From a virus: a DNA stretch of 22,614 nucleotides. Of this stretch, positions 12,560 to 22,490 are shown in pieces (position 1 is the stretch's first letter; each line of letters opens with the position of its first letter). The notes beneath the pieces are model-generated. The model had not been told where the DNA came from, did not search any database, and saw only the letters and a list, made by a program, of their open reading frames with translations. The DNA lies in the IMG/VR virus record IMGVR_UViG_3300009059_000068, positions 1 to 22,614 of that record; one strand, 5' to 3'. The position numbers and the translations under genes are program-made.

Positions 12560-13156
12560 ATGGCAAGCTACAGAGAATTAACAGAAAACTTTTTGCAAAC
12601 ACGTTCAGACGCAGATTTCACAGCATTATTCTACAAAGTTAAACCGGGACTAACATCTTACGTTAACAAAATTGTCAAAGATAGAGAATTAGCAGAAGAT
12701 ATTGCTATTAACACATTAACAAAAATGTGGACTAAAATCGATCAGTACGATCCACAATACCAAATCACAACTTGGTTGTATCGTATTGCGTTCAACGATG
12801 CATTGGGACATATTAGCAACCGAAACAAACAATCATCTCTTGATAAATTGTCAGAGTTTGGTGTAGAAATTAATGAAGCTGGCGAATTCACTACAGGATT
12901 GCAAGGTGCATTCGAGGATTACGAAATGAAAACTGAACAGGATTTCATTGATGAAGATAATGAAATGATGGAGAAGTATGGTAAAACTCTTAAAGCTATC
13001 GATTCATTAAAAGAGGCTTACAAAGGTATTATTGTAGATCGTTTGATTAATGAAATGAAATACGAAGATATTGCAGAGAAACATAACTTGCCTCTTCAAA
13101 CAATTAAGAATCGTATTCGTCGCGGTAAAGCAATCATCGAAGAATCTGTAGCATAA
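12560..13156 (+). CDS. RNA polymerase sigma factor, ECF-like
   Basis: A 198-aa sigma-70-family protein with regions 2 and 4 only. Region 2 is about residues 15-85: YVNKIVKDRELAEDIAINTLTKMW, then YQITTWLYRIAFNDALGHISNR, the normal ECF helix pair. Region 4 is about 145-196, with DIAEKHNLPLQTIKNRIRRGKAII as the helix-turn-helix. An acidic linker of about 50 residues (EDYEMKTEQDFIDEDNE) joins them. It probably redirects host RNA polymerase to phage late promoters, as T4 gp55 does; the GATATATAA motif is a candidate target. It has its own composite promoter and its stop overlaps the start of the next gene. Confidence 0.88.
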   Translation: MASYRELTENFLQTRSDADFTALFYKVKPGLTSYVNKIVKDRELAEDIAINTLTKMWTKIDQYDPQYQITTWLYRIAFNDALGHISNRNKQSSLDKLSEFGVEINEAGEFTTGLQGAFEDYEMKTEQDFIDEDNEMMEKYGKTLKAIDSLKEAYKGIIVDRLINEMKYEDIAEKHNLPLQTIKNRIRRGKAIIEESVA

Positions 13157-13371
13157 TGGTAGTTGTAGTTTATAGAAAATCAGAGCGTTCAAAAACAAAA
13201 TACATGACCGTATTTCCAAATGAACAAACACCCGATAAAATTATCAATGGTCGAGCCCGAAAGCCCATGATTCCAGATGAGTATATCATCGATGAGATTG
13301 GAGTTGGAGAAAGATTTATTGAGGACTATAAAAACCAATATAAAATTAAAAAGCATGAAGTTATTGAATAA
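13156..13371 (+). CDS. Hypothetical 71-aa protein
   Basis: Starts in the sigma gene's stop codon (TAATGG). Residues 1-25 (VVVVYRKSERSKTKYMTVFPNE) look like a beta hairpin with basic loops, followed by NGRARKPMIPDEYIIDEIGVG. No family recognised. Overlap with the sigma gene suggests a related role, for example an anti-sigma or sigma partner, but nothing in the sequence proves it. Confidence 0.65.
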   Translation: MVVVVYRKSERSKTKYMTVFPNEQTPDKIINGRARKPMIPDEYIIDEIGVGERFIEDYKNQYKIKKHEVIE

Positions 13372-13693
13372 AATATCGTGGATTACTAGGAGATGGAATT
13401 ATAAATTTCAACTCTTGAATGTTTATCTACATGATGGTAATGAAAGCTGGGGTATTGATATTGCAACTTTTATTATAAACCATAGGGCTAGTTCACTATT
13501 TTCAATTATGTTGAGATTTCCAAATCTCACAACTGTTAAAAAATTAACAATAGATGAGTTCGATATTTTTTATTTAAGAAAACCGTTATATGATGATTAT
13601 GATAACTTAAGCGATTCTAAATTATGGGGATCAAAACTTACCAAATTTCAAATATTTAGGCTATCAATTCTAGAAAAAATATTTAAACTTTAA
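13355..13693 (+). CDS. Hypothetical 112-aa protein
   Basis: I place the start at the ATG at 13355, which overlaps the preceding gene by 17 bases; an in-frame ATG at 13277 would overlap it by 95. The sequence is basic at the N-terminus (MKLLNKISWITRRWNYKFQLL) and then reads LHDGNESWGIDIATFIINHRASSLFSIMLRFPN, a mixed alpha/beta region. No family recognised. It ends 14 bases before a terminator-promoter module. Confidence 0.6.
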   Translation: MKLLNKISWITRRWNYKFQLLNVYLHDGNESWGIDIATFIINHRASSLFSIMLRFPNLTTVKKLTIDEFDIFYLRKPLYDDYDNLSDSKLWGSKLTKFQIFRLSILEKIFKL

Positions 13694-13746
13694 CATAAAT
13701 TTAACACTCCAGATTTTACCGTCTGGGGTTTTTTGTTTATATTTAC
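13689..13746 (+). promoter_or_regulatory. Composite promoter overlapping a terminator
   Basis: TTTAACA at 13689 and 13700, TTTTACC at 13714 and TATATTTAC at 13738. The TTTTACC box is in the loop of the terminator at 13707-13734. Drives the P-loop kinase gene at 13767. Confidence 0.78.
13707..13734 (+). terminator. Intrinsic terminator fused to a promoter
   Basis: CTCCAGA (13707-13713) pairs with TCTGGGG (13722-13728; one G-T pair), loop TTTTACCG, then six T. It ends the sigma operon. Confidence 0.8.
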
Positions 13747-13766
13747 ACTATAATTAAAACAAACAA

Positions 13767-14180
13767 ATGAAAAATTTAATACTATTAAGAGGATTACCTG
13801 GAAGTGGAAAATCGACAACTGCAAAATTGTTAGGAGCTGGTGGAGCTGGAACTGCACATTTTGAAGCTGATATGTTTTTCATGGTCGATGGAGAATACAA
13901 ATTTGATGTAGCAAAAATCAAAGATGCACACCAATGGTGTCAAAGTTCAGTGGAACATGCAATGTTAATGAATCACACAACTGGATATAATAGTACAATC
14001 ATCGTTTCAAATACGTTTACTCAAGAATGGGAAATGGAAGTTTACTATAACCTTGCAAAAGAATGGGGTTATCGAGTAACTTCTCTAATTGTAGAAAACC
14101 GACATGAGGGAGTTAATGTTCACGGAGTTCCTCAAGAAACCTTGGACAAAATGAAACAAAGGTTTGAAATTAAACTATAA
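13767..14180 (+). CDS. P-loop kinase, polynucleotide kinase-like
   Basis: A 137-aa P-loop protein. RGLPGSGKST (residues 8-17) is the Walker A, with the RG-LPGSGKS form typical of the Pnkp/N4BP2-like kinases. EADMFF (about 33-38) gives the catalytic Asp, YKFD and KDAHQWCQSSVEHAM (about 51-65) fit the helix after it, and VSNTFTQEWEMEVYYNLAKEWGY (about 86-108) matches the D-N-T-N-x-x-x-x-E-M pattern. Expected role: phosphorylating 5'-OH ends of RNA or DNA. It is about half the length of T4 Pnkp because the phosphatase is a separate gene (8251). It has its own promoter. Confidence 0.82.
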   Translation: MKNLILLRGLPGSGKSTTAKLLGAGGAGTAHFEADMFFMVDGEYKFDVAKIKDAHQWCQSSVEHAMLMNHTTGYNSTIIVSNTFTQEWEMEVYYNLAKEWGYRVTSLIVENRHEGVNVHGVPQETLDKMKQRFEIKL

Positions 14181-14190
14181 TATATAGAAT

Positions 14191-14730
14191 ATGAAAAAAG
14201 CAATAATGACATTTGAAAAGTACACAACCTACTCTGAATTGAGTAAAGGTAAGTGGGGAACGCCAGAAGAGATGATGACGGATGCTGAATTTATTATTGG
14301 AAGAGTATTACCAACTAATGATAAAAAATGGATTAAAGATATTGAAGACCAGTCGACAGACCAGGGAATCAAGTTCCAAGCAACACTTTCAGGTGGCGAT
14401 GTTATTCACATGTATATGGTTTCAAAATGGAGAATGAACATGGATTCGTGGGAATTCTATTTGAATAAAAAGAAAATCAAATCATTTGAACTTATTAAAG
14501 TCTTAGAGGAGAAATATATGTCAGACCTTGAGAAATTCTTAAAGTATGCATTTTCATATGATTTTTATGCACAGTACATAGATAATGGTACTCAGTATAA
14601 AAATGCAGTGGCTAATAATGATAGAATAGAGGCAAACTTTAAAGCGTTGAGCCCTAAAGATAAAAAGAGTGCAATTGAAGCTCTCGAAGCAAAATTTGGA
14701 AAGGAATTATCGTCAAAGGTATTCAAGTAG
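14191..14730 (+). CDS. Hypothetical 179-aa protein with possible capsid-targeting N-terminus
   Basis: The N-terminus MKKAIMTFEKYTTYSEL resembles the MKK-x-K-x-FEEF start of three genes downstream, but less well. The middle (ATLSGGDVIHMYMVSKWRMNMDSWEFYLNKKKIKSF) looks like a small beta-domain and the C-terminal 70 residues are helical (ALSPKDKKSAIEALEAKFGKELSS). AATATATAGAATATG precedes the start, a late-type motif. No family recognised. It ends just before the next terminator-promoter module. Confidence 0.65.
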   Translation: MKKAIMTFEKYTTYSELSKGKWGTPEEMMTDAEFIIGRVLPTNDKKWIKDIEDQSTDQGIKFQATLSGGDVIHMYMVSKWRMNMDSWEFYLNKKKIKSFELIKVLEEKYMSDLEKFLKYAFSYDFYAQYIDNGTQYKNAVANNDRIEANFKALSPKDKKSAIEALEAKFGKELSSKVFK

Positions 14731-14734
14731 AAAT

Positions 14735-14751
14735 TGTTAATAACTTTAACA
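14735..14751 (+). repeat. TGTTAATAACTTTAACA site
   Basis: Exact copy of the sequence at 12456-12472 and 17967-17983; inverted TGTTAA/TTAACA. Confidence 0.65.
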
Positions 14752-14802
14752 AAAATTTAACACTCCAGATTTTTTAATCTGGAGTTTTTTGTTTATATTT
14801 AC
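14745..14802 (+). promoter_or_regulatory. Composite promoter overlapping a terminator
   Basis: TTTAACA at 14745 and 14756 and TATATTTAC at 14794. The loop of the terminator carries TTTTTTAA in place of TTTTACC, so the -33 box is weaker. Drives the genes from 14827. Confidence 0.72.
14763..14790 (+). terminator. Intrinsic terminator fused to a promoter
   Basis: CTCCAGAT (14763-14770) pairs with ATCTGGAG (14777-14784), then six T. Confidence 0.85.
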
Positions 14803-14826
14803 ATATCTAATTAAAACAATAACAAT

Positions 14827-15138
14827 ATGAAAAAATTTAAAGTACTAGATTTTCAACAAGCTGATAGTTTAACAGTTGGTTCATCATTAAAAGGTTATAT
14901 CAATGCAACATATAGTCAATTGCTAGAAATCTTAGGAGAACCTACATACAATGAACCATCGGGAGACGGCAAAGTTCAAGTTGAATGGGTGGTATCTTTT
15001 GAAGGAGATATTTTTACAATATATGATTGGAAAACATTCTCAAGGGAATATACTGAAACCGAATTAAAGGAGTTTAATGTTGGAGGTAAAACATACGCTG
15101 GTTACTTCATAGAAAAAATAGAATCATTACTTAAATAA
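14827..15138 (+). CDS. Hypothetical 103-aa protein
   Basis: First gene after a composite promoter. Reads as a small alpha+beta domain: GSSLKGYINATYSQLLEILGEPTYNEPSGDGKVQVEWVVSFEGDIFTIYDWKTF. The order 'helix, LGEP, K-x-x-x-EW-x-V, G-x-x-FTIYDWK' looks like a widespread phage family, but I cannot name it or give a function. Expressed in one unit with the RNA ligase that starts 9 bases later. Confidence 0.7.
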   Translation: MKKFKVLDFQQADSLTVGSSLKGYINATYSQLLEILGEPTYNEPSGDGKVQVEWVVSFEGDIFTIYDWKTFSREYTETELKEFNVGGKTYAGYFIEKIESLLK

Positions 15139-15146
15139 AAAATAAG

Positions 15147-16271
15147 ATGGAAAATCAAAATTCAGTTTGCTATGTAGGGCAAATCACAGAAATCAGACCA
15201 ATTGAAGGTGCTGATAACATTGAATTAGCAGTTGTTGGTGGCTGGAATGCAATCACTAAAAAGGGTGAATTCAATCCAGGTTCCCTAGTAGCTATCGCAA
15301 CTACAGATGCTGTAATTCCACAAGAATTGTCAGATAAAATGGGAGTAACTTCATACTTACGTAAAGGTCAAAGAGTACGTACTGTAAAATTACGTGGAGT
15401 TTATTCAGAATGTTTAATCATTCCAGTGGTACATATTAAAGCATCAAGTATCCGAGAGGGTAGAGACCTAATGGAAGAACTTGGTATTACTAAGTTCGAA
15501 CCACCTGTAAAACAAGTTCAATTATCAAACGGTAAAAAGATTCGTTACCAATCTAATCCTAATTTTACAGTTTACTATAAGTTTCCGAACTTAAAGAATG
15601 TTGCTGGATTATTCACAGAAGAGGATGGTGTTCAAATCACCAGAAAAATTCATGGTACTAATGCACGTTTTGGTATTGTTCGTAAAAATAAACTATCATT
15701 CTTTGATAAATTAAAGAAATTCTTTGGACTTGCTGGCGAATGGATTCAATACGAATATGTTTATGGTTCTCATAACGTGGAGAAAGGAAGCGATTCTCAG
15801 GGATTCTATTCAACTGATGTTTGGAGAACTATTGCCGAAGAGTATGGTATCAAACAAAAATTATGGGATGTTGTTAAAACTAGAGATGTTGAGGAAATTG
15901 GTGGAGGATTTGTATTGTATGGTGAAATCTATGGCGCAGGAATTCAAAAGAATTATGAATATGGTTTAACCGATATCAAATTTGCTGGATTCGATGTCAC
16001 AATCGATGGTAGATATGCTGATACCCAATTGGCACAATATATCATTGAAGATGTATTAGAACTTCCACACGTTGAAGTACTTTACGATGGTTTATGGAAC
16101 CAAGAAGTACAAGATAGTTTTGTATTTAATAATTTCATTGAAGGAACTAAAGTACCTCATGAAGGAATTGTAATCAAACATGTTACTGGTGAAAGACAAA
16201 AAGTTGCGAAAGTGATTAATCCAGACTATTTGATTTATGGTGAAAAGAACAATGTAGGAGATTCACATTAA
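15147..16271 (+). CDS. RNA ligase, DraRnl (Rnl5)-like, with N-terminal OB domain
   Basis: A 374-aa ATP-dependent RNA ligase. Residues 1-115 form an OB-like module (CYVGQITEIRPIEGADNIELA, VVGGWNAITKKGEFNPGSLVAI) as in the Deinococcus DraRnl ligase. The nucleotidyltransferase motifs follow: motif I RKIHGTNAR with Lys167 as the AMP acceptor, motif III LYGEIYG (257-263), motif IV EGIVIK (339-344) and motif V KVINPDYL (355-362). Expected role: sealing nicked RNA, most likely cleaved tRNAs, after end healing by the phosphatase (8251) and kinase (13767). The link to tRNA repair is inferred from the tRNA arrays and the T4 precedent. Confidence 0.9.
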   Translation: MENQNSVCYVGQITEIRPIEGADNIELAVVGGWNAITKKGEFNPGSLVAIATTDAVIPQELSDKMGVTSYLRKGQRVRTVKLRGVYSECLIIPVVHIKASSIREGRDLMEELGITKFEPPVKQVQLSNGKKIRYQSNPNFTVYYKFPNLKNVAGLFTEEDGVQITRKIHGTNARFGIVRKNKLSFFDKLKKFFGLAGEWIQYEYVYGSHNVEKGSDSQGFYSTDVWRTIAEEYGIKQKLWDVVKTRDVEEIGGGFVLYGEIYGAGIQKNYEYGLTDIKFAGFDVTIDGRYADTQLAQYIIEDVLELPHVEVLYDGLWNQEVQDSFVFNNFIEGTKVPHEGIVIKHVTGERQKVAKVINPDYLIYGEKNNVGDSH

Positions 16272-16276
16272 TACTG

Positions 16277-16288
16277 CGATATATAATC
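16277..16288 (+). promoter_or_regulatory. Possible late promoter motif CGATATATAATC
   Basis: GATATATAATC ends a few bases before the ATG at 16290, so a transcript from it would have almost no leader. Same core as the motif before the tape-measure candidate (3289). It precedes the three genes with capsid-targeting-like N-termini. Confidence 0.42.
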
Positions 16289-16289
16289 T

Positions 16290-17087
16290 ATGAAAAAACT
16301 AAAAACATTCGAAGAATTTTCGGCAAACCAGGTAAAGTGCGACGAGTGTGGTTGGAAATGGAGACTTGAAGAGGGTGGAGACGATGTTTATGTTTGTCAC
16401 GAATGTGGACATGATAATTCTCCAAAATTTGTTCAAGAAGCTGAAGAGAAGGAAACTTCTAGAGAGGCATTAGATAATCCAGCAATCAACAAAGCACTTG
16501 ATACAAAGGCTAAAGAATCGGGAGTTCCAATTGGAATACTTAGAGCTGTAATGCGTAGAGGAATGGGAGCTTGGAATTCTAGTCACCGACCTGGAGTTAG
16601 TCAAGAGGCTTGGGGTTATGCAAGAGTAAATGCTTTCCTTGAAAAAGGAGATGGTACTTGGCAAAACGCAGATGCTGATTTGGCAAAAGAGGTTAGAGCA
16701 GGAGGCCATGATAAAAAGTTACCGTACAAGGTTGAAGAGTCCCTAAATGAGGCTGAAGAAACTTATAATGACTATCCAGCTGCAGCAAAAGCAAACGCAA
16801 AGAAAGCACTTGATTGGAGAGATGAATATGGTCGCGATGAGGTAACTGCAGGTACTCCAGTTGGATGGCAAAGAGCGAATCAATTGGCAAAAGGAGAAAA
16901 GCTTTCCCGAGATGTTATTAGTAGAATGGCACAATTTAATCGTCATAGAAAGAATTCAGAAATAGATCCAGAATTAAAATCAACTCCATGGAAAGACAAT
17001 GGATATGTTGCATGGTTAATTTGGGGAGGAGACGAAGGAGTCGATTGGGCAATTAATAAAATAAAAGAAATAGATGAAAAAGGTTAA
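16290..17087 (+). CDS. Zinc-ribbon / DUF5824-like protein with capsid-targeting-like N-terminus
   Basis: A 265-aa protein. Starts MKKLKTFEEF, like the next two genes. Residues 17-41 form a zinc ribbon (CDECGWKW ... CHECGHD). Residues about 74-130 (GVPIGILRAVMRRGMGAWNSSHRPG, then WGYARVNAFL) match a phage motif I know as DUF5824. Residues about 160-260 (AKKALDWRDEYG, VGWQRANQLAKGEKLS, FNRHRKN, VAWLIWGGDEG) form another module common in phage head proteins. The linker LNEAEET between them could be a second prohead protease site. A role inside the capsid is likely; enzyme activity is unknown. The stop overlaps the next start by 14 bases. Confidence 0.75.
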   Translation: MKKLKTFEEFSANQVKCDECGWKWRLEEGGDDVYVCHECGHDNSPKFVQEAEEKETSREALDNPAINKALDTKAKESGVPIGILRAVMRRGMGAWNSSHRPGVSQEAWGYARVNAFLEKGDGTWQNADADLAKEVRAGGHDKKLPYKVEESLNEAEETYNDYPAAAKANAKKALDWRDEYGRDEVTAGTPVGWQRANQLAKGEKLSRDVISRMAQFNRHRKNSEIDPELKSTPWKDNGYVAWLIWGGDEGVDWAINKIKEIDEKG

Positions 17088-17421
17088 ACTTTTTGAAGAG
17101 TTCTTAAATGAGGAAATGGTCCTTAAAGATTTGGAGGGTAAGTTTGGAATTAAGTTGGATGTATTTAATACCCTAAATTATGTTGAGTTAACAAGAATTG
17201 AAATACCTAAAGAAAAGAGAGGACAAGGAATAGGAACCGAGGTTATGGATTTAATAATTGCATTTGCAAATGCGCAAAATAAACCAATATATTTAACTCC
17301 ATCAAAAGATTTTGGAGCAACATCAGTTTCGAGATTAGAGAAATTTTATAAAGGTCTAGGTTTTGTAAAAAACACAGACAAGAGTTTAACAAGAAATACA
17401 ATGGTAAAATACCCAAACTAG
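17074..17421 (+). CDS. GNAT-family acetyltransferase with capsid-targeting-like N-terminus
   Basis: A 115-aa protein beginning MKKVKLFEEFLNEE. The rest has the GNAT core: a strand with VELTRIEIPKEKRGQGIGTEVM, where RGQGIG binds the acetyl-CoA pyrophosphate, then helix, a strand IYLTPSKD, and the terminal RLEKFYKGLGFVKN motif. The N-terminal beta strands of a full GNAT domain are reduced. The target is unknown; T4 injects ADP-ribosyltransferases that modify host RNA polymerase, and this could be a similar injected modifying enzyme. Confidence 0.78.
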   Translation: MKKVKLFEEFLNEEMVLKDLEGKFGIKLDVFNTLNYVELTRIEIPKEKRGQGIGTEVMDLIIAFANAQNKPIYLTPSKDFGATSVSRLEKFYKGLGFVKNTDKSLTRNTMVKYPN

Positions 17422-17422
17422 T

Positions 17423-17965
17423 ATGAAAAGAATTAAATTATTTGAAGAGTTTATGAATGAGGCTGAAAAACAAACTTACGATTCTAATTGTGCAATGCTA
17501 TATTTTGACTTTCCACAAATGAAAGAAATTCATAAAGAAATCAGCCCAGAGGACATTTATCATGCAGATAAAAATGGAGGATACGGATTAGAAACCGAAC
17601 CACACTGTACCCTATTATATGGTTTAAAACCAGATGTATCGTTAGAGCAGGTAAGGGAAAAGCTGGATGGCTTTGATTTTGGAAAATGTTTAGCACATAA
17701 TGTATCACTATTTGAAAATGCAGATTTTGATGTACTTAAATTTGATATTAAGGGAGACAATTTACATGCAGCAAATAAATCTCTATGTGAATTACCATAT
17801 TCGTCAGATTATCCGGATTACCATCCACACATGACAGTTGCATACTTAAAACCTGGAAAGGGGAGTAAATATTTAAAGATTCTAAATGCACAAGAGCATT
17901 CATTGAAACCGCTACATATTGTATATAGCATGAGCGATGGAAGTAAGCATATTATGAACCTATAA
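17423..17965 (+). CDS. 2H phosphoesterase (2'-5' RNA ligase-like / Acb1-like) with capsid-targeting-like N-terminus
   Basis: A 180-aa protein starting MKRIKLFEEFMNEAEKQ. It has the two H-x-T motifs of the 2H superfamily: HCTLLYG (His61, Thr63) and HPHMTVAYL (His136, Thr138). Such enzymes act on 2',5'-linked or cyclic nucleotides and RNA 2',3'-cyclic ends. Two roles are open: tRNA end processing with the ligase and kinase here, or destroying cyclic nucleotide signals of host defence, as phage Acb1 (T4 57B) does. A capsid-delivered copy would be in the cell from the start of infection, which favours the second. The start is 1 base after the GNAT stop region. Confidence 0.8.
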   Translation: MKRIKLFEEFMNEAEKQTYDSNCAMLYFDFPQMKEIHKEISPEDIYHADKNGGYGLETEPHCTLLYGLKPDVSLEQVREKLDGFDFGKCLAHNVSLFENADFDVLKFDIKGDNLHAANKSLCELPYSSDYPDYHPHMTVAYLKPGKGSKYLKILNAQEHSLKPLHIVYSMSDGSKHIMNL

Positions 17966-17966
17966 T

Positions 17967-17983
17967 TGTTAATAACTTTAACA
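17967..17983 (+). repeat. TGTTAATAACTTTAACA site
   Basis: Third exact copy of the near-palindrome found at 12456 and 14735. Confidence 0.65.
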
Positions 17984-18034
17984 AAAAATTAACACTCCAG
18001 ATTTTACCGTCTGGAGTTTTTTGTTTATATTTAC
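17977..18034 (+). promoter_or_regulatory. Composite promoter overlapping a terminator
   Basis: TTTAACA at 17977, ATTAACA at 17988, TTTTACC at 18002 and TATATTTAC at 18026. Drives 18053 through the tRNA-Arg and DUF4326 genes. Confidence 0.78.
17995..18022 (+). terminator. Intrinsic terminator fused to a promoter
   Basis: CTCCAGA (17995-18001) pairs perfectly with TCTGGAG (18010-18016), loop TTTTACCG, then six T. Confidence 0.85.
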
Positions 18035-18052
18035 ATATCAAATTAAAACAAG

Positions 18053-18277
18053 ATGATTAGAGAGAAACAAGAAAAAACTGGACTAATTATTATAGATCTA
18101 ACAGGACCTGACGGTAATGCATATGCCTTAATGGCAATGGCTAAACGATTTGCAAAACAATTAGGTTGGAAAGATCAGGGTGCTGCCCTAATTAATGAAA
18201 TGATGAGTGGAGATTATGAACACTTATTGGAAGTATTTGATAATGCATTCGGTGAATTTGTAATCTTAGAGCGATAA
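18053..18277 (+). CDS. Hypothetical 74-aa protein
   Basis: Reads GLIIIDLTGPDGNAYALMAMAKRFAKQLGWKDQGAALINEMMSGDYEHLLEVFDNAFGEFV. I believe this pattern, IDLTGPDGNA followed by helix and SGDYE-x-L-x-x-x-F, is a common small phage family without a known role. It is the first gene after a composite promoter and its stop overlaps the SWIM gene start (TAATGG). Confidence 0.75.
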   Translation: MIREKQEKTGLIIIDLTGPDGNAYALMAMAKRFAKQLGWKDQGAALINEMMSGDYEHLLEVFDNAFGEFVILER

Positions 18278-18663: not shown

Positions 18664-18737
18664 GGTCCGATAGCTCAGCTGGATAGAGCAACTGCCTTCT
18701 AAGCAGTAGGTCGAAGGTTCGAATCCTTCTCGGATCA
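18664..18737 (+). tRNA. tRNA-Arg (TCT)
   Basis: Acceptor GGTCCGA/TCGGATC, D arm with AGCTCAGCTGGATAGAGC, anticodon stem ACTGC/GCAGT with loop CTTCTAA (anticodon TCT at 18698-18700), T arm GAAGG-TTCGAAT-CCTTC, discriminator A. CCA is not encoded. Reads AGA, a common Arg codon in this AT-rich phage. Confidence 0.95.
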
Positions 18738-18739
18738 CA

Positions 18740-19036
18740 ATGAAACAAACAAAGATAGTTCATCTTAAAAAAGAACCTTATGATGTTTATATCGGTAGAC
18801 CCTCAAAATGGGGAAATCCATATTCGCATAAAGAAGGAACCCTTGCAGAATTTAGGGTTAAGAATAGAGCAGAAGCCCTAGAAAAATATGAGAAATATCT
18901 TCTAGAAAATGAAACACTATTTAATTCTTTGATAGAACTACAAGGAAAAACTCTTGGATGTTGGTGTAAACCTAATAAATGTCACGGAGATATTCTGGTA
19001 AAGTGGTCAAATTCAATTGGAATTCAACTATTTTAA
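18740..19036 (+). CDS. DUF4326 domain protein
   Basis: A 98-aa protein with the DUF4326 pattern: VYIGRPSKWGNPYSHKEG (about 16-33), RAEALEKYEKYLL and LQGKTLGCWCKPNKCHGDIL (about 68-86). The Cys and His residues of GCWC-x-x-x-x-CHG probably bind a metal. The family is frequent in phages; I know of no firm function. Starts two bases after the tRNA-Arg discriminator, so tRNA 3' processing would remove or shorten its leader. Confidence 0.82.
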   Translation: MKQTKIVHLKKEPYDVYIGRPSKWGNPYSHKEGTLAEFRVKNRAEALEKYEKYLLENETLFNSLIELQGKTLGCWCKPNKCHGDILVKWSNSIGIQLF

Positions 19037-19158
19037 AAATAAATTAAAAATAATTCAAATTAACATTGAATTTTTTGAAACAAATAGATATATACATCTA
19101 TAATATACATAAGAAAATTAAATCTTATATATAGATTAGAACAAACAAAATAATTAAA
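19037..19158 (+). other. AT-rich intergenic region
   Basis: About 120 bases without a gene. It contains ATTAACA (19059), TTTTTTGAAA, TATATACAT (19089) and CTTATATATAGATT (19123). A promoter for the 48-aa ORF is likely here but I cannot choose between these. Confidence 0.35.
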
Positions 19159-19305
19159 ATGCAAACAATTCAAAAACATATCATTATGGAACAACCAGTC
19201 CTTACGACAGGAAACCCGATATGTGGCCAGTATCCTGGGAATTTTAGCAATTCGGATTGGAAGCAAGACGGTTCTTTTGAAAACAAACATGTTAGTATGA
19301 GTTAA
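19159..19305 (+). CDS. Possible 48-aa small protein
   Basis: ORF from the ATG at 19159, MQTIQKHIIMEQPVLTTGNPICGQYPGNFSNSDW, ending KHVSMS. Supported by an A-rich leader (AACAAACAAAATAATTAAA) and by a terminator 23 bases after the stop. No homologue recognised. It might instead be an untranslated small RNA ending at the same terminator. Confidence 0.42.
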   Translation: MQTIQKHIIMEQPVLTTGNPICGQYPGNFSNSDWKQDGSFENKHVSMS

Positions 19306-19327
19306 TCTATTAACATATAAGATATTC

Positions 19328-19361
19328 AAAAGGACCTTTCAGAAATGAATGGTCCTTTTTT
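19328..19361 (+). terminator. Intrinsic terminator
   Basis: AAAAGGACC (19328-19336) pairs with GGTCCTTTT (19351-19359), followed by more T. Lies just before tRNA-Cys. Confidence 0.8.
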
Positions 19362-19371
19362 GATTTTATAG

Positions 19372-19442
19372 GTTCGGTTGGTCGATTGGTTAGGCACTGG
19401 ATTGCAAACTCAGGAAGGTTGGTTCGATTCCAACACCGGACT
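19372..19442 (+). tRNA. tRNA-Cys (GCA)
   Basis: Acceptor GTTCGGT/ACCGGAC, D arm with GATTGGTTA, anticodon loop TTGCAAA (GCA at 19404-19406), T arm GTTGG-TTCGATT-CCAAC, discriminator T as expected for Cys. The last pair of the anticodon stem is a mismatch. No CCA. It lies between a terminator and the tRNA-array promoter. Confidence 0.88.
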
Positions 19443-19454
19443 CAAAAAGAAACT

Positions 19455-19512
19455 TTTAACAAAAATTTAACATTTAAAAGTTTCGGGTTTAAAAAGTTTT
19501 GATTATATTTAC
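19455..19512 (+). promoter_or_regulatory. Promoter of first tRNA array
   Basis: TTTAACA at 19455 and 19466 and TATATTTAC at 19504, with the usual spacing. The -33 position reads GTTTCGG, a weaker match. Confidence 0.75.
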
Positions 19513-19532
19513 ATATCAAAATTTAGAACAAA

Positions 19533-19550
19533 TGTTCATTGACATCTTGG
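19533..19550 (+). promoter_or_regulatory. boxA-like leader of first tRNA array
   Basis: TGTTCATTGACATCTTGG follows the promoter and precedes tRNA-Ser. Its first 12 bases match E. coli rRNA boxA (TGCTCTTTAACA) at 9 positions. A related sequence leads the second array (21302-21319). Confidence 0.5.
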
Positions 19551-19562
19551 CATAGAAATTAA

Positions 19563-19649
19563 GGAGGATTGGCAGAGTGGTCGATCGCGCTGGTCTTGAA
19601 AACCAGTGGACCTGAAAGGGTCCCGTAGGTTCGAATCCTACATCCTCCG
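19563..19649 (+). tRNA. tRNA-Ser (TGA)
   Basis: Acceptor GGAGGAT/ATCCTCC, anticodon stem CTGGT/ACCAG with loop CTTGAAA (TGA), long variable arm (GGACC..GGTCC), T arm GTAGG-TTCGAAT-CCTAC, discriminator G as in tRNA-Ser. Confidence 0.93.
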
Positions 19650-19657
19650 CCGGGACT

Positions 19658-19739
19658 GCTCCTGTGGTGGAATTGGTAGACACGCTAGACTTAGGATCTA
19701 GTGCCAATAGGTTTGAGAGTTCGAGTCTCTCCGGGAGTA
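19658..19739 (+). tRNA. tRNA-Leu (TAG)
   Basis: Anticodon stem CTAGA/TCTAG with loop CTTAGGA (TAG at 19692-19694), long variable region, T arm GAGAG-TTCGAGT-CTCTC, discriminator A. The first acceptor pair is G-T. Confidence 0.92.
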
Positions 19740-19757
19740 CTGTGAAACTTTTTGCCA

Positions 19758-19806
19758 TTTCCATGGATATATAGATTATAGAAAAATATCTAAATATCCA
19801 TGGAAA
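19758..19806 (+). promoter_or_regulatory. Perfect 13-bp hairpin enclosing the endonuclease start codon
   Basis: TTTCCATGGATAT (19758-19770) and ATATCCATGGAAA (19794-19806) are exact inverted copies. The right arm contains the start ATG (19800). The loop starts with late-type ATATATAG. See findings. Confidence 0.75.
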
Positions 19807-20432
19807 GAGCTCAAAGAAGGAAATACCACTACATTTATAAAACTACATGTATTATTACAAACAAGTTTTATATTGGAATGCATTCAACAGATAACCTAGA
19901 AGATGGTTATGTTGGTTCAGGCAAAAGACTTTGGTATTCAATTAACAAACACGGTAAAGACAATCATGTTTGTGAAATATTAGAATTCTTACCTGATAGA
20001 AATTCTTTAAAAGTTAGAGAAATGGAAATAGTTAATGAAGAACTTTTAAATGAAGAATTATGTATGAATCTAAAACTAGGTGGTAGTGGAGGTTTTTCTA
20101 ATGAAGAGCATAGAAAAAATGCACAAGAATCTGGTAGAAAATCATATATCAACAGATTAAAAAATGATAAAGATTTTTTTAAAAAAATATCTGATTCTAG
20201 AATTACTAATAATTTAGGTAATCAATATGGAATTGGTAATAAATCATTTACAGGTAAAACTCATTCAGAAGAAACAAAAAGAAAAATAGGAGAATCTAAT
20301 TCTGCTAAACAAAAAGGATCTAATAACTCCCAATATGGAAAGTGTTGGATAACAAATGAAAATGAATCTAAGAAAATCAATAAAGGTGATATAATACCTG
20401 AAGGATGGAGATTAGGTAGAAAGATTTTTTAA
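19800..20432 (+). CDS. GIY-YIG homing endonuclease
   Basis: A 210-aa free-standing homing endonuclease. GIY-YIG motifs: YIYKTT (11-16) and KFYIGMHST (22-30), then GSGKRLWYSINKHG (39-52), and the catalytic Glu in REMEIVNEELL (about 73-83). The second half has NUMOD3-like DNA-binding repeats (GNKSFTGKTHSEETKRKIGESN) and a final CWITNEN ... IPEGWRLGRK element seen in phage HEGs. It sits between tRNA-Leu and tRNA-Thr. Its stop is 5 bases before tRNA-Thr. A mobile element that entered the tRNA array. Confidence 0.9.
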   Translation: MERAQRRKYHYIYKTTCIITNKFYIGMHSTDNLEDGYVGSGKRLWYSINKHGKDNHVCEILEFLPDRNSLKVREMEIVNEELLNEELCMNLKLGGSGGFSNEEHRKNAQESGRKSYINRLKNDKDFFKKISDSRITNNLGNQYGIGNKSFTGKTHSEETKRKIGESNSAKQKGSNNSQYGKCWITNENESKKINKGDIIPEGWRLGRKIF

Positions 20433-20437
20433 AATTT

Positions 20438-20510
20438 GCTTCCGTAGCTCAGTTGGTAGAGCAGCTGATTTGTAATCAGCAGGTCATGGGTTCGAGTCCC
20501 ATACGAGCCG
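20438..20510 (+). tRNA. tRNA-Thr (TGT) with defective acceptor pairing
   Basis: D arm, anticodon stem GCTGA/TCAGC with loop TTTGTAA (TGT) and T arm ATGGG-TTCGAGT-CCCAT are perfect, and CCA is encoded (20511-20513). The acceptor does not close: GCTTCCG against ACGAGCC has mismatches at pairs 2, 6 and 7. The homing endonuclease gene ends 5 bases upstream. Confidence 0.82.
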
Positions 20511-20519
20511 CCAAATTAT

Positions 20520-20592
20520 CTAGGTATGGGAAAGTTGGTAATCCGCTACATTTGGGATGTAGAGATCGCAGGTTCGAGTCCTGCTACTTAGA
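20520..20592 (+). tRNA. tRNA-Pro (TGG)
   Basis: Acceptor CTAGGTA/TACTTAG, anticodon stem CTACA/TGTAG with loop TTTGGGA (TGG), T arm GCAGG-TTCGAGT-CCTGC, discriminator A, CCA encoded at 20593-20595. Confidence 0.93.
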
Positions 20593-20596
20593 CCAT

Positions 20597-20668
20597 GGAC
20601 CAGTAGCTCAGTGGTAGAGCAAACGGCTGTTAACCGTTAGGTCGAAGGTTCGAATCCTTCCTGGTCCG
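20597..20668 (+). tRNA. tRNA-Asn (GTT)
   Basis: Acceptor GGACCAG/CTGGTCC, anticodon stem AACGG/CCGTT with loop CTGTTAA (GTT), T arm GAAGG-TTCGAAT-CCTTC, discriminator G, no CCA. Confidence 0.95.
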
Positions 20669-20676
20669 CAATTAAT

Positions 20677-20748
20677 GGTCCGCTCGTCTATCGGTTAGGA
20701 CGCCAGGTTTTCATCCTGGTAAGCGGGGTTCGATTCCCCGGCGGACTA
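20677..20748 (+). tRNA. tRNA-Glu (TTC)
   Basis: Acceptor GGTCCGC/GCGGACT (first pair G-T), anticodon stem CCAGG/CCTGG with loop TTTTCAT (TTC), T arm CGGGG-TTCGATT-CCCCG, discriminator A. Confidence 0.94.
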
Positions 20749-20753
20749 CAATT

Positions 20754-20825
20754 GGTCTCATAGTTAAACGGCTATAATGCAGCCCTGTCACGGCTGAGTT
20801 CGGAGTTCGATTCTCCGTGGGACCG
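20754..20825 (+). tRNA. tRNA-Asp (GTC)
   Basis: Acceptor GGTCTCA/TGGGACC, anticodon stem CAGCC/GGCTG with loop CTGTCAC (GTC), T arm CGGAG-TTCGATT-CTCCG, discriminator G. Confidence 0.94.
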
Positions 20826-20979
20826 CTTCTTAAAACCGATTCGCGTTCAAGGTAAAGTAACAACGTGCGGAAACGATGCAACAGTCGTTGAGTCTTTCAG
20901 AACAAGACATAAAAGAATTCGAAACCTCCATACTCTGGAAAGTTACCACAGAAGGTGATATCGGTGACCTTCTATTTCT
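20826..20979 (+). other. Structured gap between tRNA-Asp and tRNA-Ile
   Basis: A 154-base stretch with no tRNA. Perfect hairpins: AACGA/TCGTT (20872-20889), GTCTT/AAGAC with a 7-base loop (about 20893-20909) and AGAAGGT/ACCTTCT with a 10-base loop (20950-20973). A 37-aa ORF (ATG 20876) runs into tRNA-Ile and is probably chance. A small RNA released by tRNA processing is possible. Confidence 0.4.
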
Positions 20980-21053
20980 AGTCATTTAGCTCAGTTGGTT
21001 AGAGCGCCTCGCTGATACCGAGGAGGTCACTGGTTCGAGTCCAGTATTGACTA
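20980..21053 (+). tRNA. tRNA-Ile (GAT)
   Basis: Acceptor AGTCATT/ATTGACT with a T-T mismatch at pair 6, anticodon stem CCTCG/CGAGG with loop CTGATAC (GAT), T arm ACTGG-TTCGAGT-CCAGT, discriminator A. Confidence 0.93.
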
Positions 21054-21061
21054 CGATATAT

Positions 21062-21132
21062 TGTCCTTTCGTCTAATGGCAGGACACGTGGTTTTGGTCC
21101 ACGCGGTGGAGGTTCGAGTCCTCCAGGGACAA
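21062..21132 (+). tRNA. tRNA-Gln (TTG)
   Basis: Acceptor TGTCCTT/AGGGACA, anticodon stem CGTGG/CCACG with loop TTTTGGT (TTG), T arm GGAGG-TTCGAGT-CCTCC, discriminator A. The weak T-A first pair fits Gln. Confidence 0.93.
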
Positions 21133-21138
21133 CAATAA

Positions 21139-21212
21139 GGTCTTTTAGCTCAGTCTGGTAGAGCGCCTCGCTCATAACGAGAGGGTCCTAGGTTCGAATC
21201 CTAGATGGACCA
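21139..21212 (+). tRNA. tRNA-Met or Ile2 (CAT)
   Basis: Acceptor GGTCTTT/ATGGACC (T-T mismatch at pair 6), anticodon loop CTCATAA (CAT), T arm CTAGG-TTCGAAT-CCTAG, discriminator A. First acceptor pair is G-C, so not initiator-like; elongator Met or lysidine-modified Ile. Confidence 0.92.
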
Positions 21213-21250
21213 CAATTGTTAATAACTTTCTAAAAATAATTGCTAAAATA

Positions 21251-21283
21251 TTTTTTTATATCAAAAGTTTTTAATATATTTAC
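21251..21283 (+). promoter_or_regulatory. Promoter of second tRNA array
   Basis: TATATTTAC at 21275, T-run at the -33 position, preceded by TTGTTAATAACTTT (21216-21229), a partial copy of the TGTTAATAACTTTAACA site. The TTTAACA pair has decayed. The leader after it resembles that of the first array. Confidence 0.65.
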
Positions 21284-21301
21284 ATAACAAATTAAAACAA
21301 A

Positions 21302-21319
21302 CGTTATTTGAAATCTTGG
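21302..21319 (+). promoter_or_regulatory. boxA-like leader of second tRNA array
   Basis: CGTTATTTGAAATCTTGG aligns without gaps to the leader at 19533-19550 and lies at the same place between promoter and first tRNA. Confidence 0.4.
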
Positions 21320-21329
21320 TAAAAAAAAT

Positions 21330-21401
21330 GCAGATGTCGTATAATGGTCATTACTTCAGACTTCCAATCTGAAGATGAGAGTTCGATTCTCTCCATCTGC
21401 T
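21330..21401 (+). tRNA. tRNA-Gly (TCC)
   Basis: Acceptor GCAGATG/CATCTGC, anticodon stem TCAGA/TCTGA with loop CTTCCAA (TCC), T arm GAGAG-TTCGATT-CTCTC, discriminator T, CCA encoded at 21402-21404. Confidence 0.95.
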
Positions 21402-21407
21402 CCATGT

Positions 21408-21472
21408 GATAATTGCTCCAGTATGATTGGTAAGCATCCGACAGTAACATCGGACTGGCAATGTAATTATTA
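21408..21472 (+). ncRNA. tRNA-like element without T arm
   Basis: GATAATT (21408-21414) pairs with AATTATT (21465-21471) like an acceptor stem. A D-loop-like TGATTGGTAAGC follows, then TCCGA/TCGGA (21437-21441 with 21450-21454) closing an 8-base loop CAGTAACA. There is no T arm; CCAG/CTGG (21418-21421 with 21455-21458) adds an internal helix instead. It is too regular for random sequence but not a normal tRNA. Confidence 0.4.
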
Positions 21473-21495
21473 AGAGGTAAGGAAAAGACTAAGTT

Positions 21496-21568
21496 TGTTA
21501 TGTAGCTCATTGGTAGAGCGGGTGCGTAAAAGTAGTTGCCGTAGCAGGTTCGATTCCTGTCATAACAT
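21496..21568 (+). tRNA. Atypical tRNA-like element, no anticodon stem
   Basis: Acceptor TGTTATG/CATAACA is perfect, D arm GCTC-ATTGGTA-GAGC is canonical, and T arm GCAGG-TTCGATT-CCTGT is good. The 24 bases between D and T arms (GGGTGCGTAAAAGTAGTTGCCGTA) have nearly normal length but cannot form a 5-bp anticodon stem, so no isotype can be assigned. Confidence 0.5.
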
Positions 21569-21828
21569 CGAGGAGACTGTTACTAATTCATAGTCCTTAT
21601 GTGACGACGGAAGCATAGAATTAGAATTACTTTAAGACGTTAGAGATAGGGTCGCTCCCTAATCAAAGATGCGCTTCGAAACCTTAGCAATAAGGCAGCT
21701 TAAAGTAAAACGCATAGGTAACTGAAGAACACGAGTTCTAAAGAGTAATGGTTCGATTCCATTATCCGTAATAGCCAAAGGGAAAGCATTGAGGTCGATG
21801 CATAAGTTATAACAGAGCTGCAGCTCTA
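21569..21828 (+). ncRNA. Hairpin-rich region with one T arm
   Basis: Contains perfect short hairpins in series: CTAATTC/GAATTAG, TAGGG-TCGCT-CCCTA, CCTTA-GCAA-TAAGG inside ATGCG/CGCAT, AGAAC-ACGA-GTTCT, and AGAGC-TGCA-GCTCT. A full T arm AATGG-TTCGATT-CCATT stands at 21747-21763. The best 5' partner for its acceptor side (TCCGT) is ACGGA at 21607, 140 bases upstream. No ORF. A structured RNA of unknown kind. Confidence 0.45.
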
Positions 21829-21888
21829 GGAGTGGTCTGGTTAAAGTCGTACAAGTACAGACAAATGGTTCGAATCCATTCACTTCGC
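21828..21888 (+). ncRNA. tRNA-like element with one arm replacing D and anticodon arms
   Basis: GGAGTG (21829-21834) pairs with CACTTC (21881-21886). The T arm AATGG-TTCGAAT-CCATT is perfect. Only 29 bases lie between acceptor and T arm and they form GTCTG/CAGAC around an 18-base loop. Confidence 0.42.
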
Positions 21889-21895
21889 AAATATG

Positions 21896-21970
21896 AGCGT
21901 TGAAGCACAATTGGACGTGCAACCGGTAATAGGCCGGATTAGGTTATAGGTTCGAATCCTATCTCTGCTC
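21896..21970 (+). tRNA. Atypical tRNA-like element, loop without U33
   Basis: D arm GCAC-AATTGGAC-GTGC and T arm ATAGG-TTCGAAT-CCTAT are good. Acceptor AGCGTTG/CTCTGCT has two mismatches. The CCGG/CCGG stem closes a 7-base loop TAATAGG, which lacks the T normally at position 33, so the anticodon is uncertain (ATA by position). Confidence 0.5.
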
Positions 21971-21975
21971 CAAAT

Positions 21976-22072
21976 GATTATGAGTCCATTGGTTGGAAGC
22001 ACCTCCCCAAGGTTGAGTTGAAATACACTCTTTATGGCAAAGCTGAAATTGGTTCGAATCCAATCATAATTA
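21976..22072 (+). tRNA. Atypical tRNA-like element with extra hairpin
   Basis: Acceptor GATTATG/CATAATT and T arm ATTGG-TTCGAAT-CCAAT are fully paired and a D arm TCC-ATTGGTT-GGA is present. In the anticodon position ACCT/AGGT closes a 5-base loop CCCCA, followed by a second hairpin GAGT-TGAAATAC-ACTC. Total length 97 bases. No isotype can be given. Confidence 0.48.
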
Positions 22073-22076
22073 CAAA

Positions 22077-22121
22077 GAAGATGCCTGATCAGCAAAATCT
22101 TCCTAACGATTAAGATTACAT
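22077..22121 (+). other. Two mutually exclusive hairpins
   Basis: The segment AATCTTC at about 22096-22102 can pair with GAAGAT upstream (22077-22082) or with AAGATT downstream (22112-22117). Such overlap is typical of switching RNAs but may be chance in AT-rich sequence. Confidence 0.3.
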
Positions 22122-22169
22122 ATAGCTTAAAGAGATTTGACGTCACTATTTCTGTAATTTTAATTGATT

Positions 22170-22247
22170 GCTTTACGTAGTTTAACGTGGTTTGGAACGC
22201 TGGCATATAAGTCCGGAAGAGTATGGGTTCGAATCCCATGTAAAGAC
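22170..22247 (+). tRNA. Atypical tRNA-like element with 9-base loop
   Basis: CTTTAC/GTAAAG acceptor (six pairs, then one extra G before the D arm), D stem GTTT/GAAC, and T arm ATGGG-TTCGAAT-CCCAT are present. The stem CTGG/CCGG closes a 9-base loop CATATAAGT, so the anticodon is not defined. Confidence 0.5.
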
Positions 22248-22254
22248 ACTATAT

Positions 22255-22328
22255 TGCGGGTTAAAGTTCTGGTGAACTTATCGGTCTCATAAGCCGAATG
22301 AAGGGTCGTTCGATTCGGCCACCCGCTA
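22255..22328 (+). tRNA. tRNA-Met (CAT), possibly initiator-like
   Basis: GCGGGT/ACCCGC pairs with an unpaired T-T at position 1-72, D arm AAGT/ACTT, anticodon stem TCGGT/GCCGA with loop CTCATAA (CAT), T arm GGTCG-TTCGATT-CGGCC, discriminator A. An unpaired 1-72 is a hallmark of bacterial initiator tRNA. Confidence 0.88.
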
Positions 22329-22381
22329 CTAAAAGTTTTAATGTTGGCTCTAGTTCTTTAAAAACGTAATTGCCTACACCA

Positions 22382-22454
22382 GACTTCGTAGCTCAATCGG
22401 TAGAGCACCGAACTTTTAATTCGGGGGTAGTGGGATCGTAGCCCGCCGGGGTCA
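22382..22454 (+). tRNA. tRNA-Lys (TTT) with unusual T loop
   Basis: Acceptor GACTTCG/CGGGGTC, anticodon stem CCGAA/TTCGG with loop CTTTTAA (TTT), T stem GTGGG/CCCGC. The T loop is ATCGTAG instead of TTCGANT. Discriminator A. Confidence 0.9.
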
Positions 22455-22490
22455 CAATAAACTAAAAATTGTCACAATAAACTAACAATG
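22451..22490 (+). repeat. 20-base tandem duplication of the tRNA-Lys tail
   Basis: GTCACAATAAACTAAAAATT is followed directly by GTCACAATAAACTAACAATG. The first GTCA is the 3' end of tRNA-Lys, so the duplication includes the gene's last bases. Confidence 0.75.

Follow-up and report, generated by a model that had tools for sequence, protein, structure and literature searches.

An N-terminal leader shared by three adjacent genes of a phage genome fragment, and recurrent in related genomes, resembles the capsid-targeting sequence of T4 internal proteins

The internal proteins of the T-even phages form a diverse anti-defence set whose only common feature is the targeting sequence (PMC3012670), and IPI–IPIII inhibit GmrSD enzymes after injection (PMC12373910). 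That the T4 leader directs foreign proteins into the head is established, on the account given in PMC9958956 (Mullaney and Black 1996, as cited there). Most huge phages are uncultured, and what they inject at the start of infection is therefore largely unknown.

The window, by which we mean the whole stretch of 22,614 nucleotides that was analysed, is a 22.6-kb viral record carrying the C-terminus of a tail sheath, a tube, a tape measure and a tRNA array; its sheath is nearest to that of a 462-kb uncultured phage (61%), followed by those of Tenacibaculum phage PTm1 and other huge phages. A sequence-only reading of this DNA had pointed to a T4-like capsid-targeting N-terminus on three neighbouring and otherwise unrelated proteins. 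Both parts of that observation hold: MKKLKTFEEF at 16290, MKKVKLFEEFLNE↓E at 17074 and MKRIKLFEEFMNE↓A at 17423 (arrows mark predicted cuts) are the N-termini of three operon genes, and the bodies of the three proteins belong to separate families. The ORFs were called mechanically, that at 17074 beginning within the 3' end of the 16290 ORF and that at 17423 one base past the stop of the 17074 ORF. The features of the operon are these:

16290..17087, + strand: ORF of 265 aa, leader with zinc ribbon, DUF5824 (PF19141, 46 bits against a cut-off of 25) and third domain (NDYPxAA); zinc ribbon and third domain assigned by homologs
16290..16331, + strand: leader MKKLKTFEEFSANQ, without a canonical cut site ahead of the zinc ribbon
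16431..16439, + strand: V48-Q-E50, predicted cut before A51, at the joint of zinc ribbon and DUF5824 (L096 homolog; model disorder at 43-52)
16743..16751, + strand: L152-N-E154, predicted cut before A155, at the joint of DUF5824 and third domain (L103 homolog; model disorder at 139-155)
17074..17421, + strand: ORF of 115 aa, leader with GNAT acetyltransferase
17074..17112, + strand: leader MKKVKLFEEFLNE, predicted cut after its Glu (L-N-E↓E)
17423..17965, + strand: ORF of 180 aa, leader with 2H phosphoesterase, motifs H61-C-T63 and H136-M-T138 (Pfam profiles, invariant H/T, fold)
17423..17461, + strand: leader MKRIKLFEEFMNE, predicted cut after its Glu (M-N-E↓A) (leader swapped among homologs; residues 1-16 disordered in the model)
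17994..18017, + strand: terminator-like hairpin at the operon end

Near-identical terminator-like hairpins (ACTCCAGATTT...TCTGGAGT with a T run) lie in the window at 13706-13729, 14762-14785 and 17994-18017. The tRNA array (18664-22455) holds 16 predicted tRNA genes, one of them without a clear anticodon, and a GIY-YIG-like ORF (19800-20432) lies within it.

The motif FEEF occurs nine times in 827,737 internal residues of the compared genomes, a rate of about 1e-5 per position, and within the first ten residues of 3 of the 43 non-overlapping ORFs of the window, so these N-termini are not a product of chance. Tallying N-termini over full proteomes, as the sequence-only reading had proposed, revealed recurrent leaders far above internal controls in several related genomes, each with 8 to more than 100 otherwise unrelated carriers. 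Pairs of similar N-termini numbered 42 against a mean of 0.4 for internal-window controls in the closest relative, G007 (a 77 kb IMG/VR record in which the proteins compared are 92-97% identical to those of the window), 206 against 3.9 in G001 (256 kb), 394 against 19.1 in W01 (462 kb), 895 against 31 in W03 (634 kb) and 117 against 6.6 in G013. No recurrent leaders were found in Bacillus phage SPO1 (2 pairs against 1.4) or crAss001 (1 against 0.5), both of which have no match to the S77 (gp21-family) protease; PTm1 has the protease and shows no such leader expansion (5 against 1.8), so an S77 protease does not imply one. Carriers exceed 100 in W03, and in G001 14 of 15 consecutive genes bear leaders. 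When 61 carriers are aligned, conservation is confined to MKxIKLFExFxNE, the general form being a basic start followed by [FY]-E-x-[FY]. Codon similarity among leaders is close to the expectation from genome usage (0.705 versus 0.642 in G001, 0.700 versus 0.785 in W01), which argues for selection on the leader peptide and against recent copying. Scanned by the same method, T4 yielded MKTYQEFIAEA on two ORFs (100 and 193 aa) and MKTFKEF...TITEA on a third (95 aa), which from their sizes we take to be IPII, IPIII and IPI. On these comparisons, the N-termini of the three genes are the local edge of a proteome-wide system.

Three further N-termini, MKIIITESQ of G013, MIKLKDLI of G012 and G018 and MKTxxIKSLIE of Molly, are assigned to leader families by analogy. 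In G013 (L373-L389) about 31 proteins begin MKIIITES/ENQ-like, and the 2H homolog of this genome uses another leader. In the cultured Maribacter phage Molly_1 (NC_062751) about nine proteins, for example those at 13107-18193 and 107604-118982, begin MKTxxIKSL[IV]E↓S, which is another hydrophobic-x-Glu family; the S77 match in Molly_1 scores 27.1 bits, and no mention of 'mass spectrometry' was found in the paper on the Maribacter phages Molly and Colly. A tblastn search with the doubled leader, too short a query, gave no match among the named phages, and PAU gp70, annotated 'internal capsid protein', does not have such a leader.

After the aromatic block the site runs hydrophobic residue, any residue, Glu. 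At the canonical position of 94 leader-like starts, 62 had hydrophobic-x-E and four hydrophobic-x-D, while two residues past the first aromatic the acidic choice is free (39 E, 23 D). A viral-contig sample chosen by leader only, which overlaps the first set in some gene families and is thus not fully independent of it, gave hydrophobic-x-E in 32 of 58 starts and hydrophobic-x-D in one; 20 of the 58, including a 63-aa family, had no hydrophobic-x-E within 18 residues. A leader-agnostic test of N-terminal Glu against Asp was significant in part of the genomes only. Within the operon the motif is present in 17074 (L-N-E↓E) and in 17423 (M-N-E↓A, with Met at P3) and absent beside the 16290 leader, being found instead at the module joints of that protein. 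The E-F-x-N-E-A core earlier ascribed to all three is accordingly exact in 17423 only; 17074 has FLNE↓E, and 16290 has FSANQVKCDE, with no hydrophobic-x-E before the zinc ribbon. The ORF at 14191, earlier listed as a weaker match, was rejected as a leader carrier because the Glu is not kept, TFEKYTTYSE of the window aligning with TFEAYQTYSD, Asp in place of Glu, in a relative.

Leaders are also exchanged between lineages. The 2H body begins at about Y-x-Y-G-C-A-M-L-Y-F, and the segment preceding it differs by lineage (MKRIKLFEEFMNEA, MKHIKLFEEFIAEK, MENQEFKRMQKLAGLIVEE, MIKLKDLITEA, MELNEQLTKIKTMMGINEN and MKLKKYKQFIKES), these lineage-specific leaders nearly always ending in hydrophobic-x-Glu directly ahead of the body. 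Different leaders are likewise found on the zinc ribbon, a P-loop kinase and one small body, and some homologs, for example that of Maribacter phage Molly_1, are leaderless.

Two joints, V48-Q-E50↓A51 and L152-N-E154↓A155, connect the three bodies of the 16290 protein. In the L096 homolog the body that comes after the first of these joints directly follows a leader (FISE↓AEEKE), as the third body does in L103 (FINE↓AEETYNDYP). The third body occurs in 28 distinct contexts. All 7 that have a leader keep hydrophobic-x-E, and so do 11 fusions, three of these with the portal-type TIKE/TVKE. Fusions of the third domain to portal proteins (PF04860) locate it at the head in other phages, and leader-like segments occur inside long proteins of the relatives L133, L142 and L100. 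The structural model of the 16290 protein (overall pLDDT 69) is of low confidence at residues 1-15, 22-38, 43-52, 121-125 and 139-155, a set covering the leader and both joints, and weakly supports the placing of both joints in predicted disordered linkers. Portal proteins (PF04860) with the third domain at the C-terminus are encoded at L111 6492-8717 and L161 130-2052, the former having a DUF5824-like stretch at its C-terminus as well. A homolog of the third domain at L005 5001-6782 has an intein-like insert, and an S77 match at LR756508.1 156507-158102 is interrupted within one long frame, perhaps by an intein as well.

The prohead protease gene, which the sequence-only reading had proposed to seek elsewhere in the genome, is not in the 22.6-kb window, where no S77 gene was found, as expected of a fragment, but the closest relative, G007, has one. 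Matches to S77 were obtained in all nine named related genomes (six above cut-off), in 18 of 24 IMG/VR records, G007 included, and in T4 as a control, and from the relatives we infer a gp21-type protease in the phage of the window. In G007, G003 and G001 a gene between portal and protease, sitting where T4 has genes 67 and 68, bears a leader with hydrophobic-x-E at varying spacing. The major capsid proteins of G012, G018 and G013 have L-D-E↓A or I-N-E↓A where T4 gp23 has L-T-E↓A, a correspondence by sequence order, since the aligner did not stack the columns.

The 17423 protein matches PF23474 (Acb1) at 29 bits and PF13563 (2'-5' RNA ligase) at 28, the cut-off being 27 in each case, and residues H61, T63, H136 and T138 of its HCT and HMT motifs are invariant in 20 homologs. 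In its model (pLDDT 86) the leader (residues 1-16) is disordered, and a fold search returned, close together, poxviral cGAMP phosphodiesterase, a Burkholderia phage phosphodiesterase, Usb1 and Acb1 (fold matches 9bkq, 9q2y/9q2g and 7t27). The modelled fold suggests that the 2H enzyme acts on immune nucleotides; RNA-end repair is a possible role, because an RNA ligase gene lies upstream of the operon at 15147. The GNAT protein at 17074 matches PF00583 at 21.5 (cut-off 20.7), and its G001 ortholog PF13508 at 31.6 (cut-off 27). In G007 a leader-bearing Tad3-like gene (68.9 bits, cut-off 27), absent from the operon of the window, lies between the GNAT and 2H genes; no paper on Tad3 was found among the open-access papers searched. 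Among the carriers of four genomes, Pfam identified 2H/Acb1, Tad3, GNAT, P-loop/zeta-like kinase, polynucleotide kinase 3' phosphatase, ATP-grasp and LRR families; most carriers had no Pfam match, and those of W03 hardly any. The proteins likely carried as cargo are a GNAT and a 2H enzyme resembling Acb1/cGAMP phosphodiesterases, joined in G007 by the Tad3-like product of the intervening gene.

Our current working hypothesis, which we regard as quite probable, is that the N-terminus common to these proteins serves as a capsid-targeting propeptide and is removed by a protease of gp21 type, the enzymes then being delivered with the DNA. The leader, the preference for Glu, the swapping and the protease of the relatives, each seen in sequence, point to the targeting and the cutting; the delivery is conjecture. 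By T4 precedent, the leader, with its basic start and [FY]-E-x-[FY], would bind the core of the growing head and bring the attached protein inside, where a prohead protease of the gp21 family would cut after the Glu of hydrophobic-x-Glu and free the mature enzyme. At infection the enzymes would then leave the head together with the DNA and take effect immediately. Cyclic or 2',5' nucleotides of immune signalling would probably be the substrates of the 2H enzyme, the GNAT would acetylate some target, and the 16290 protein may be divided by cuts at V-Q-E↓A and L-N-E↓A into as many as three active modules. The capsid-targeting proposal of the earlier reading gains strong comparative support from the proteome-wide leaders, the Glu at the cut, the swapping, the gp21-family protease in the nearest relatives and the T4 control, but not in every particular, as a canonical cut is missing beside the 16290 leader and 14191 is unsupported.

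More than 100 carriers in a 634-kb phage are many for packaged proteins, and this stands against the hypothesis, as do the missing canonical cut of 16290, the leader starts lacking hydrophobic-x-E, the want of a leader expansion in PTm1 and the outcome of the leader-agnostic test. So large a number of carriers would suit a leader that is no packaging tag and serves as a docking or sorting peptide for the replication machinery, a membrane or an intracellular phage compartment, as would the several carriers that resemble nucleic-acid or nucleotide enzymes and could act in replication, and the leader starts without a cut site. We nevertheless think docking unlikely, given that one position favours Glu over Asp whereas either acid is freely used two residues past the first aromatic, that hydrophobic-x-E is also retained at junctions between modules, outside the N-terminus, that the form is that of the T4 internal proteins and that a leader gene adjoins the protease. 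Lysine-rich starts are common in AT-rich phages, and the similarity could in principle stem from recent duplication of gene starts or from selection on translation initiation, with no function of the peptide; the conservation of residues 7-13, a codon variety near that expected from genome usage and the leader-like segments inside long proteins (L133, L100, L142), where no start is needed, make this highly improbable. The propeptide might also be cut from structural head or core proteins that are retained in the capsid or degraded, no cargo being injected. The leader gene at the place of T4 genes 67 and 68, the products of which are degraded in the T4 head (PMC9958956), and the fusion of the 16290 third domain to portal proteins elsewhere would agree with this; however, most carriers assignable to a family are enzymes or inhibitors (2H, GNAT, kinase, Tad3-like) and not structural proteins, and we give such a role little credence.

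Should the leader prove to be a packaging tag, one could read from the sequence of any such phage which proteins it injects, and with such a tag on the Acb1-like and Tad3-like carriers, immune signalling would be countered before phage gene expression starts. It is interesting to speculate, with the chances about even, that huge phages load dozens of proteins (more than 100 in the 634-kb phage) by means of lineage-specific tags, pre-deliver Acb1-like and Tad3-like inhibitors of nucleotide-signalling immunity with the DNA and cut multi-module cargo inside the capsid. The open-access papers searched contained no report of leaders expanded in this way outside the T-even phages.

Among described systems, Acb1 and the viral cGAMP phosphodiesterases share with the 17423 protein the 2H fold, two H-x-T motifs and a Pfam Acb1 match just above cut-off, but the 2'-5' RNA ligase model gives the 17423 protein a score about as high, Usb1 is among its matches too, and it bears a leader of packaging type. 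DarA and Hdf of phage P1 are anti-restriction proteins carried in the head, DarA being cut by the prohead protease; the propeptide is of about 70-90 residues, however, and no shared short leader is reported (PMC12810830). The head ejection proteins of the giant phages SPN3US and phiKZ are likewise numerous and head-packaged, and a prohead protease trims the propeptides that some of them bear (PMC5694885), yet those propeptides are mostly long (>100 residues), with no shared short tag. The likeness to IPI, IPII and IPIII of T4 and the T-even phages lies in the short K-x-[FY]-x-[EQ]-[FY] leader, the hydrophobic-x-Glu end, which 16290 lacks beside its leader, the unrelated bodies (PMC9958956; PMC12373910), a gp21-family protease in the phage, here seen in the relatives, and, in known cases, anti-defence cargo. 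The system described here, whose packaging is predicted from sequence, differs from these in a leader about three residues longer, in having 8 to more than 100 carriers per genome where T4 has three, and in its lineage-specific leader families, leader or cut sites inside multi-module proteins, and enzymes among the cargo.
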